Shown here: in pieces, positions 18,443 through 21,591 of the stretch
Layout: every line of letters starts with the position of its first letter
Position numbering within the stretch: position 1 is the stretch's first letter
Assembly (NCBI RefSeq): GCF_004762095.1
Contig: NZ_SIJH01000012.1
Location: 1-64,000 of the forward strand
Direction of reading: 5' to 3'
Source: Tabrizicola caldifontis
GTDB taxonomy: Bacteria; Pseudomonadota; Alphaproteobacteria; Rhodobacterales; Rhodobacteraceae
DNA: 64,000 bases
Translations under genes and position numbers: made by a program
The notes under the pieces: model-generated
Told to the model about the DNA's origin: nothing
The model's input: only the letters and a program-made list of their open reading frames with translations
The model's database searches: none

Positions 18443-19771
18443 TCAGACATAATCCGACCGGCTGAGCCCGTATTTGGCCATCTTCTCGTTCAAAGTCCGG
18501 CGCGGCAGGCAGAGTTCTTCCATTACGGCGACGATCGACCCCTTGTGCCGCCGCATCGTGTTGTCGATCAGCATCCGCTCGAAAGCCTCCACATAGTCTT
18601 TCAGCGGCTTGCCTTCCGTGGTCAGCACCGGACCGGCGGCTTCGTTGTCGGCCATCAGCAGGCTGGCGATCGACCCTGATCCGCGCCGGTTCTGCAGGAC
18701 TGCGCGTTCGGCAATGTTCACCAGCTGACGCACGTTCCCCGGCCAGGGCGCCTGCAAAAGCTGCGCGGCCTCCTGCGCGGTGACCTGGGGGGCCTCGCAG
18801 CCGTATTCCTCGGCGAACTGTTCGCTGAGTCGGTTGAACAGCGTCAGTATGTCCTCTCCACGGGTGCGCAGGGGCGGCAACACGATGGTCATCGCCCCCA
18901 GCCGATAATAAAGGTCGGGCCGCAGAACCTGTTCCAGCGTCGTATCCGGCGCGTGCTGGTTGCAGATCGCGATGATCCGGGTTTCCGGCGGGGTGCCCTG
19001 GTCATTGATGAAGGTCAGCAGACGTGCCTGCAACGCATTCGGCAGGGCTTCGATGTCCTCAAGGCAAAGCGTCCCGCCCCGCGCCTCTTCCACCAGCGGA
19101 AGGGTGCCATCCTCGGCCGGGCCGAAAAGACGTGCAGCAAGCTGCTCCTCACCCCACGCGGCGCAGGAGATCGCCACGAACTTCTTCGACGCCCGCGGCC
19201 CCACGGCATGCAACGCATGGGCAACCAGCGTCTTGCCGGTGCCCGTCTCGCCGTCGATCAGCACATGGCTGTCGGCCTGGCCAAGATCGAGGATGTCCTC
19301 GCGCAGCCGCTCCATTGCCGGGCTGGTGCCGATCAGCTTCTTCATGATGGTCGAGCCGTCGGACAACTCCTTGCGCAGCGCGCGGCTGTCCAGCGTCATC
19401 CGCCTCGCCTGGGTGGCCTTCTTGGCCAGTTCGGTCATCCGGTCAGGGTTGAACGGCTTTTCCAGGAAATCGAATGCACCGACGCGCATCGCTTCGACCG
19501 CCATCGGCACGTCGCCATGGCCGGTGATCATGATGACCGGCAGGCCCGAATCCTGCCCCATCAGCCGCTTGAGGAATGTCATGCCATCCATGCCCGGCAT
19601 CTTGATGTCGCTGACGACGACGCCCTGGAAATCCGGGCCGATCGCCTTCAGCGCATCCTCGGCACTGGCATAGGTTTCGGTGTCGAATCCCGACAGCGCC
19701 AGCCACTGGCTGATTGACTGCCGCATGTCCGCCTCGTCATCGACGATTGCCACCTTCATTACGCGGGCCAT
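18443..19771 (-). CDS. DctD/NtrC-type response regulator lacking the GAFTGA loop
   Basis: 442-residue regulator: receiver (residues 5-115, phospho-acceptor Asp55 in VVVSDIKMPGMDG), AAA+ domain (about 145-370) and a Fis-type DNA-binding end (GSIVAVMEELCLPRRTLNEK). Walker A is intact (GETGTGKT, 174-181), as is RPDLYYRL near the arginine finger. The segment that should carry GAFTGA, the sigma54-contact loop, is missing: LFGPAEDGTLPLVEEARGG runs straight on, about 7 residues short. The Walker B acidic pair reads LEDIE instead of LDEIE. It is probably a sigma70-dependent activator, as known for Rhodobacter capsulatus NtrC. It follows its kinase by 16 bases; GAAGAGGT precedes the ATG. Confidence 0.88.
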   Translation of the reverse strand: MARVMKVAIVDDEADMRQSISQWLALSGFDTETYASAEDALKAIGPDFQGVVVSDIKMPGMDGMTFLKRLMGQDSGLPVIMITGHGDVPMAVEAMRVGAFDFLEKPFNPDRMTELAKKATQARRMTLDSRALRKELSDGSTIMKKLIGTSPAMERLREDILDLGQADSHVLIDGETGTGKTLVAHALHAVGPRASKKFVAISCAAWGEEQLAARLFGPAEDGTLPLVEEARGGTLCLEDIEALPNALQARLLTFINDQGTPPETRIIAICNQHAPDTTLEQVLRPDLYYRLGAMTIVLPPLRTRGEDILTLFNRLSEQFAEEYGCEAPQVTAQEAAQLLQAPWPGNVRQLVNIAERAVLQNRRGSGSIASLLMADNEAAGPVLTTEGKPLKDYVEAFERMLIDNTMRRHKGSIVAVMEELCLPRRTLNEKMAKYGLSRSDYV

Positions 19772-19787
19772 GGGGACCTCTTCATTG

Positions 19788-21545
19788 TCATTCTGCTGCT
19801 TCCTGTCTGTTGCCCAGGATCGGCAACTGCATTTCGAAAACCGCCCCGCCACCCTCGGCGTTCCGCGCCGTCAGGCGGCCGCCCAGATCGGTCACGATCC
19901 CGGACGAGATGGCAAGACCCAGTCCGACGCCCTCGCCCGGTTTCTTGGTGGTGTAGAAGGGCTCGAACAGGTTCTCGAGATCGCTGATCCCGTGTCCGTT
20001 GTCACGCACGGTCAACGTCGCCGTCTCGCCGGCCGACAAAAGGATGTCAATCTGAGGATCGCGGATGTCCTTCGTCGCGTCCAGAGCATTGCGCAAAAGA
20101 TTGATGATCACCTGCTCCAGCCGAATACGGTCGGCCATCACCATCACCGGCTGGCGCGGCAAGCCGCGGGTGATCTTGACCACCCGCGCCTTGAGCTGCG
20201 GCTCCATCATCGCCAGTGCTGAAGACACACAAGCACGAAGATCAACTTCCTCAAAGGCTTCTCCGCCCTTCCTCGCGTAAGACTTCAATTGGCGGGTGAT
20301 CGCACCCATCCGTTCGATCAGGTCGTCGATGCGCTGGAACGAGGACAAAGCCTCGTCCGGGCGCTTGCGCTGCAGCAACAGCCGCGCGCCGGCCAGATAG
20401 GTCTTCATCGCCGCCAGCGGCTGATTCAGTTCGTGGCTGACAGCAGCCGACATTTCACCCAGTGCGGCCAGTTTCGAGGATTGCGCTAGTGTCAGCTCTG
20501 CGACCTCAAGATCCTTCTGCACCTTCTCGCGTTCGGCGATTTCGCGTTGCAGCCGAGCGTTCAGCGCGCGCAGTTCGGCCGACTCCCGCTGGAACGTCAG
20601 CGAACGCGACCAAGCCCGACGCGACAGCATGTAGAAGGTGAACGCCATGAGAATGGCAAAGCCCATGATCTGCAGTGCCAGAATGCCGTTCACCTGCTCG
20701 CGCACCGAACCGTAGGCGGTGAAGGTCTGCAACTTCCAACCACGGAAGGGGATGCGCGCCTCGGTCTTCATCACCGCTTCGCCCCGGACATAGGCATCCG
20801 GTGGGGTCTGCGCCCAGTCGGCCGTGGCACGCAGCGCGCGCGAGATCGCCGAGGGCGGGTCGCGCAGTGCCAGCGCCTCGGCCACCGGCTGGCCGCGCCA
20901 GACCGTCTCGGTCGCAAGGATCACGATTCCTTCGCTGTCGGTCACCAGCACCGCATCCTGCAAACCCGCCCAGGCGCGTTCGAATTTCATCAGATCGACC
21001 GAGACGACGATGACACCGATGACCTTGGAGTCCGACAGCAGCGCGCGCGAGTAGACGAAATCGAAACCGCCCGCCTCGCGTTTCACTGCGCTGAAGATGG
21101 TATCCTTCGTGCGTTGCGCATCTACGAAATACGGGGCGTTCCGGTTGTTCGTGCCAAGGATGTTGCGATTCGTCGCACCCACGACCCGCCCGTCCCGGTC
21201 GAGCAGCCTGATCGAGGCCACGCCGATCTGGGATTGCAGCGCGATCAACTTTGCCGAGGTCGAGGAGTAGTTGCCGTCACGCAGCGCCTGGACGAGTTCT
21301 GGGTCGCGCGACAGAAGCAACGGGACGACCGAGGTCCGCTGCAATTCCGCCATCAGGTTGCCGGTGTAAAGCGCAAGTCGGACTTCGGCACGGCTGCGCG
21401 TGTCGTTCGTATAGCGTTCGGTCAACAGGCGGTTCGAGACCAGAACGATCGCGACGGCAAGCATGATAAGCAGGCCCACCACAAGCTTGACGCGCCAGGA
21501 CATGCCCTGATCGGACTGTGCAAGCTGAGGGGTTTTTGCTGCCAT
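19788..21545 (-). CDS. DctB-type sensor histidine kinase
   Basis: 585-residue membrane kinase. An N-terminal helix (about residues 20-40), a periplasmic PDC/dCache sensor of about 260 residues (with LLDRDGRVVGATNRN and NAPYFVDA), a second helix near residue 300, a coiled linker, then HisKA with SHELNQPLAAM and an ATPase domain with DNGHGIS and GVGLGLAIS. The architecture and the SHELNQPL box match DctB, which senses C4-dicarboxylates; the ligand here is inferred. It should phosphorylate the regulator encoded just downstream. It starts 46 bases after the purQ stop on the same strand. The start is uncertain: a second ATG at codon 15 is equally possible. Confidence 0.85.
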   Translation of the reverse strand: MAAKTPQLAQSDQGMSWRVKLVVGLLIMLAVAIVLVSNRLLTERYTNDTRSRAEVRLALYTGNLMAELQRTSVVPLLLSRDPELVQALRDGNYSSTSAKLIALQSQIGVASIRLLDRDGRVVGATNRNILGTNNRNAPYFVDAQRTKDTIFSAVKREAGGFDFVYSRALLSDSKVIGVIVVSVDLMKFERAWAGLQDAVLVTDSEGIVILATETVWRGQPVAEALALRDPPSAISRALRATADWAQTPPDAYVRGEAVMKTEARIPFRGWKLQTFTAYGSVREQVNGILALQIMGFAILMAFTFYMLSRRAWSRSLTFQRESAELRALNARLQREIAEREKVQKDLEVAELTLAQSSKLAALGEMSAAVSHELNQPLAAMKTYLAGARLLLQRKRPDEALSSFQRIDDLIERMGAITRQLKSYARKGGEAFEEVDLRACVSSALAMMEPQLKARVVKITRGLPRQPVMVMADRIRLEQVIINLLRNALDATKDIRDPQIDILLSAGETATLTVRDNGHGISDLENLFEPFYTTKKPGEGVGLGLAISSGIVTDLGGRLTARNAEGGGAVFEMQLPILGNRQEAAE

Positions 21546-21557
21546 GCACGAAGATTA

Positions 21558-21576
21558 GGGCCGGGCCCGGCGGCCC
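21558..21576 (-). terminator. Possible hairpin between purQ and the kinase gene
   Basis: GGGCCG and CGGCCC pair around a 7-base loop, followed on the minus strand by TAATCTT. It lies in the 46-base gap after purQ and might limit read-through into the two-component genes. The stem is short and the T-run poor. Confidence 0.3.
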
Positions 21577-21591
21577 TCAAGCGGAAGGCGG

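Follow-up and report, generated by a model that had tools for sequence, protein, structure and literature searches.

In PspF, the L2 loop positions the L1 loop and tunes ATP hydrolysis (PMC2745333), and both L1 Thr86 and the tip of L2 are required for engaging and remodelling the sigma54 closed complex (PMC2745333, PMC4132715). Transcription through sigma70 has been demonstrated for TyrR, DhaR and HupR (PMC3162934). The GAFTGA-less NtrC of R. capsulatus uses sigma70 for activation and depends on the binding of ATP, not on its hydrolysis, as summarised in PMC10274813. Here, we analyzed a DctD-type regulator encoded in the window, the whole stretch of 64,000 nucleotides from Tabrizicola caldifontis contig NZ_SIJH01000012.1, and compared it with these systems.

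Gene layout and lineage of the regulator

The gene and its terminal domains are located as follows:

18443..19771, minus strand: gene of the DctD-type response regulator (REC, AAA+, lid and Fis-type HTH; 442 aa; ATG at 19771, stop at 18443)
19427..19753, minus strand: receiver domain, residues 7-115, with D55, T83 and K105 invariant; D55 is the phospho-acceptor
18470..18592, minus strand: Fis-type HTH, residues 394-434, based on Pfam and on conservation across orthologues

Pfam matches above cut-off comprised Response_reg (7-115), Sigma54_activat (146-296), AAA_lid_14 (302-363) and HTH_8 (394-434). The receiver domain strongly matches that of DctD (structure 1qkk, E 1.5e-39), and the best full-length PDB match is NtrX (5m7n/5m7p). 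An NtrX/NtrC1 fold was also recovered by AlphaFold and Foldseek; because the model is of modest confidence (its pLDDT averages 67.6, with higher values over most of the AAA+ core), it served as fold support only and carries no claim. The best NCBIfam match, PgtA, reached 280.8 bits, below the cut-off of 650, and the 414 positions of this profile hint at a similar shortening in PgtA.

In a tree of 85 rows (quick IQ-TREE, SH-aLRT support only), the orthologues form one side of a branch with support of 100 within the GAFTGA-bearing DctD clade, apart from NtrX and NtrC. These separate clades rule out NtrC or NtrX orthology, and the NtrX and NtrC of T. caldifontis are other genes (L002 and L005). 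The best matches outside Rhodobacterales share about 44% identity and have GAFTGA and LDE. Since the orthologues nest among GAFTGA DctDs and not with NtrC or NtrX, GAFTGA was lost independently in this lineage, in line with the suggestion of the first-pass annotation that the loss parallels that in R. capsulatus NtrC.

Several other proteins with an altered motif were also observed. Further GAFTGA losses in DctD-like proteins occur in L131/L158, L141/L146 and L167, of which the L131 and L158 pair retains an intact LDE and represents a separate loss. Three DctD-like regulators (L181, L183 and L132) have GAFPGA, and regulators of this type in S. meliloti and Paracoccus adjoin peptide ABC or tripartite tricarboxylate transporters. 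T. caldifontis itself encodes a HupR-like protein (L003, C2:104362-104844) with a degenerate GAFTGA (GVLPGG), Walker A GTGRG, Walker B E-G and an intact L2, as well as a REC-AAA-HTH protein (L009, C23:122691) whose AAA+ domain is strongly shrunken and in which VVIGI stands in place of a recognisable Walker B acidic pair.

Loss of the L1 and L2 loops

Two segments of the AAA+ domain are shortened:

19073..19129, minus strand: L1 region, residues 215-233 (LFGPAEDGTLPLVEEARGG), GAFTGA removed by a 7-residue deletion
18956..19033, minus strand: pre-sensor I / L2 region, residues 247-272, 26 aa with a 9-residue deletion (35 aa in GAFTGA proteins)

The S. meliloti DctD used as reference was retrieved together with its neighbours, a symporter and a sensor kinase gene. 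Aligned with it, the regulator reads RLFG-------PAEDGTLPLVEEARGG, a clean 7-residue gap spanning GAFTGA, exactly where the motif had been described as gone and about 7 residues short. The regulator has no GAFTGA at any other place, and the alignment rules out a displaced motif. The same comparison revealed a second loss, absent from the first-pass annotation, of 9 residues in the pre-sensor I/L2 loop, where ITPLGTNLTRPVDIR of DctD corresponds to PP-ETR.

When Rhodobacterales relatives were aligned to see if the deletion is common to them, GAFTGA was present in 0 of 122 orthologue rows, which include a few duplicate fetches of one gene, the window's own among them. The L1 segment measures 18-21 aa in 121 rows versus 26 in GAFTGA proteins, and the sole outlier, with 31 aa, is still without GAFTGA. 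For L2, 26 aa were observed in 119 rows and 27 in one, with 30 and 32 aa in the divergent rows L124 and L126; every GAFTGA protein compared has 35.

ATP site and active-site residues

The nucleotide-binding motifs are located at:

19229..19252, minus strand: Walker A GETGTGKT, residues 174-181, with K180 invariant
19055..19060, minus strand: acidic pair of Walker B, E238-D239, where DctD, NtrC and almost all NtrX rows have D-E
18902..18922, minus strand: RxDxxxR arginine-finger motif, residues 284-290 (function from PMC3419264)

Walker A and the arginine-finger region had been called intact, which is borne out by the invariance of K180, R284, D286 and R290, together with D55, across the 122 orthologue rows. 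The sensor II Arg is kept in 120 of them, the other two rows having gaps. The earlier reading of the Walker B pair as E-D instead of D-E also holds (LCLE238-D239-I): LED[IV] occurs in 119 rows, and the remaining three have LEGI, LENI and LENF once each, so that the first Glu (E238) is invariant, unlike the residue after it. Given GAFTGA in none of the 122 rows and LED[IV] in 119, these features are due neither to chance nor to sequencing error; a sequencing or frame error as the cause of the missing GAFTGA is ruled out by a trait common to all 122 rows. In addition, the Glu that typically follows the Walker A GK in enhancer-binding proteins (bEBPs) is replaced by Thr or Ser in every row, and at the sequence level the bEBP-type 'GKE' is reverted to 'GKT' in this regulator.

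We also matched these positions by motif to PspF; the matching is consistent with the residue names in PspF papers. Equivalents of K42, R162, D164 and R168 are kept in all 122 rows. The equivalent of E43 is Thr or Ser (122 rows) and that of N64 mostly Ser, D107 corresponds to Glu (122 rows), E108 to Asp (119 rows), R122 to Thr/Ser or other residues, and E125 to Asn (117 rows). The E125 and E118 positions are not diagnostic, because GAFTGA DctDs have Gln or Glu at E125 and do not conserve E118. A single change at E43, N64, D107 or R122 of PspF brings Vmax down to 0.2-1.5 per min, compared with about 40 per min otherwise (PMC3419264), and D107A is nearly dead (PMC3419264, PMC4132715). E108D was wild-type-like in a duplex-DNA transcription assay, though its ATPase was reported as reduced (PMC4132715), and no data on D107E were found in the literature searched. 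From the residues present, we infer that the regulator binds ATP and hydrolyses it weakly. That the E-D swap lowers ATPase activity, by analogy with PspF, is plausible. Some role for hydrolysis may nevertheless persist, as the invariance of the arginine-finger motif suggests.

Conservation and co-occurrence with RpoN

We examined 292 Rhodobacterales genomes, each at least 95% complete, and an orthologue match at E<=2.4e-147 was detected in 289. A search of the genome collection gave 80 loci with 79-96% identity over full or near-full length. Within the AAA+ domain, dN is 0.03-0.12 versus a dS of 0.67-1.02, and dN/dS is low in every domain; purifying selection maintains the regulator whether or not a genome has RpoN. 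Conservation of the gene order purQ-dctB-dctD-rne is widespread among relatives. The loop losses and the E-D pair are thus a property of an entire clade within Rhodobacteraceae and not of one strain. In one genome (L127/L133, G182:C1:1372291-1373618), the orthologue is split into two overlapping frames near residue 300, reflecting a frameshift or a sequencing error.

RpoN was scored by its DNA-binding (DBD) and core-binding (CBD) domains, and its absence was judged from assemblies. Strong DBD matches were found in 70 of the 292 genomes, with nine more showing only a short match of about 20-24 bits, and CBD matches in 70. The union of strong DBD or CBD matches comprises 71 genomes, leaving 221 with neither domain, all of which carry the orthologue, as do 68 of the 71 RpoN-bearing genomes. 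The three genomes missing it (G110, G227 and G141) each have RpoN, and the nearest relative in G110 and G227 is an ordinary GAFTGA/LDE DctD. RpoN is patchily distributed in Rhodobacterales: three quarters of the sampled genomes match neither domain, and G094 has as many as four matches.

T. caldifontis has one RpoN, and the only G[AS]FTGA protein among its PF00158 matches is a LuxO-like regulator (L001); thus, the sigma54 role is left to another regulator. In C. sphaeroides, where an AprX activator has been described, the bona fide GAFTGA/GSFTGA bEBPs that include a DNA-binding domain number four (PMC11999139), and our guess is that L001 corresponds to this activator. Of the features of a sigma54-dependent bEBP, the regulator retains the AAA+ core, including Walker A and RxDxxxR, and lacks GAFTGA, the L2 insertion and co-occurrence with RpoN. 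Sigma54 independence, as proposed at first pass, is well supported by the clade-wide deletion and by the orthologues in the 221 genomes without RpoN.

Partner kinase and promoter

Two further features lie upstream of the regulator gene:

19788..21545, minus strand: DctB-like partner histidine kinase (dCache/double PDC sensor, HisKA, HATPase_c)
21552..21580, minus strand: conserved sigma70-type promoter TTGAGG-N17-TAATCT, with its -10 element stopping 6 nt short of the dctB ATG (21543-21580 with the start codon)

The double PDC sensor of the kinase resembles those of V. cholerae and S. meliloti DctB. The Arg of WRPYF/FRDYF and the Lys of VKMDL/AKLEF, common to the solved DctB sensors 3by9 and 3e4o and taken here to be DctB ligand-binding residues, are replaced by Ala and Ser, respectively. 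With these residues replaced and the sensor region less conserved than any other part of the kinase, C4-dicarboxylate sensing is doubtful. No transporter gene lies beside the regulator in the conserved gene order. Thus, the original description as a DctB/DctD-type system is right by descent, as the tree indicates, and a role in dicarboxylate response does not follow from it, given the two replaced sensor residues.

The pattern TTGAG-N17-TAnnnT is present in 54 of 77 related loci versus 0.3 expected in shuffles, and its most frequent position is 6 nt upstream of the ATG; the spacer is 17 in 53 loci. A generic sigma70 consensus scan returned nothing, and the promoter is visible by cross-locus comparison only. 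The dctBD mRNA is probably leaderless, and the promoter sequence is consistent with housekeeping transcription.

Proposed mode of action

We consider it likely, with a probability of roughly 0.7, that the protein is a phosphorylation-switched, ATP-binding, sigma54-independent regulator of DctD type (group I enhancer-binding protein) and that, like R. capsulatus NtrC, it targets the housekeeping polymerase. Sequence comparison shows the NtrC-type combination of a lost GAFTGA and a kept ATP-binding site, and use of sigma70 is what we infer from this analogy. The analogy is incomplete, because Rhodobacterales NtrC keeps the Walker B D-E. A DctD-type ancestor would have given up sigma54 before most Rhodobacteraceae radiated. 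The DctB-like kinase would phosphorylate D55, and ATP binding, with slow or no hydrolysis, would stabilise an oligomer of the regulator on upstream DNA. This oligomer may then act on the sigma70 (RpoD) polymerase by contact and not by remodelling, in the manner reported for R. capsulatus NtrC. A more ambitious reading is offered only tentatively: a DctD activator would have been rebuilt into an ATP-binding switch (both pore loops removed, Walker B re-set to E-D, GKE returned to GKT) and become a core regulator that is near-universal in Rhodobacteraceae. The switch would drive the housekeeping polymerase with no need for ATP hydrolysis, and the NtrC of the same family would have changed in parallel, after sigma54 became dispensable.

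Alternatively, the sigma54-independent regulator, switched by phosphorylation and ATP, might chiefly repress or serve as an architectural DNA-binding protein rather than activate sigma70 polymerase. GAFTGA-less relatives can repress; at sigma70 promoters, a competition between Caulobacter NtrC and CtrA is possible (PMC10274813). However, the same paper describes activation by the Caulobacter and R. capsulatus NtrC proteins too, and an ATP site and an arginine-finger motif that are both invariant exceed the needs of simple dimeric repression, which makes such a role unlikely, with a probability of about one in four. Far less probable is activation of sigma54 promoters via another surface wherever RpoN is present. 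T. caldifontis does have RpoN, and nearly all RpoN-bearing genomes carry the orthologue, but every orthologue row has lost both loops, whether its genome has RpoN or not. Moreover, the corresponding L1 Thr86 and L2 tip are required on the closed complex in PspF (PMC2745333, PMC4132715), and the gene is kept where sigma54 is missing altogether. Replacement of multiple catalytic positions could also point to a degenerating relic with no regulatory function; it is the least credible possibility, given a near-universal gene with high identity across the 80 loci, low dN/dS in every domain and conserved synteny with its kinase.

The preferred reading of a sigma54-independent regulator bears on annotation. 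The orthologue in CP038202 is annotated as 'sigma-54-dependent Fis family transcriptional regulator'. Since both sigma54-engaging loops are lost, the gene is near-universal and most host genomes are without sigma54, this label is almost certainly wrong for the orthologue clade. Relabelling would leave one false regulator fewer in reconstructions of sigma54 networks and expose a conserved two-component system in a bacterial family that is abundant. The regulator and NtrC represent two parallel conversions, within one family, of an AAA+ remodeller into a sigma54-independent regulator, so that the conversion steps (L1, L2, Walker A Glu and Walker B) are testable.

Comparison with known systems

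No paper on a DctD of Rhodobacterales was found in the literature searched, and the main text of the R. sphaeroides transposon-data papers offers nothing on the orthologous gene. The S. meliloti DctD shares the REC-AAA+-Fis HTH layout, the clade and an adjoining DctB-like kinase; it has GAFTGA, a full L2, GKE and LDE, whereas the present regulator has lost both loops and has GKT and LED. Its operon also adjoins a dicarboxylate symporter gene, unlike the locus described here.

The NtrC rows of Rhodobacterales (L005 and L148) resemble the regulator in the loss of L1 and L2, the change of GKE to GKS and the kept phosphorylation site, but they belong to another lineage, have an L1 segment of 8 versus 18-21 aa and keep the Walker B D-E intact. 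Caulobacter NtrC has an 8-residue L1 deletion and is reported to work at sigma70 promoters; it is of the NtrC lineage, and its authors predict use of ATP hydrolysis (PMC10274813). In NtrX, GAFTGA is naturally missing, whereas its clade is separate, its L2 is intact (35 aa) and its Walker B is D-E. HupR, TyrR, DhaR and VpsR are likewise PF00158-related proteins with no functional GAFTGA (PMC3162934), but they are of different lineages, and the HupR-like row L003 does not combine a double loop loss with an E-D Walker B (L2 intact, E-G).
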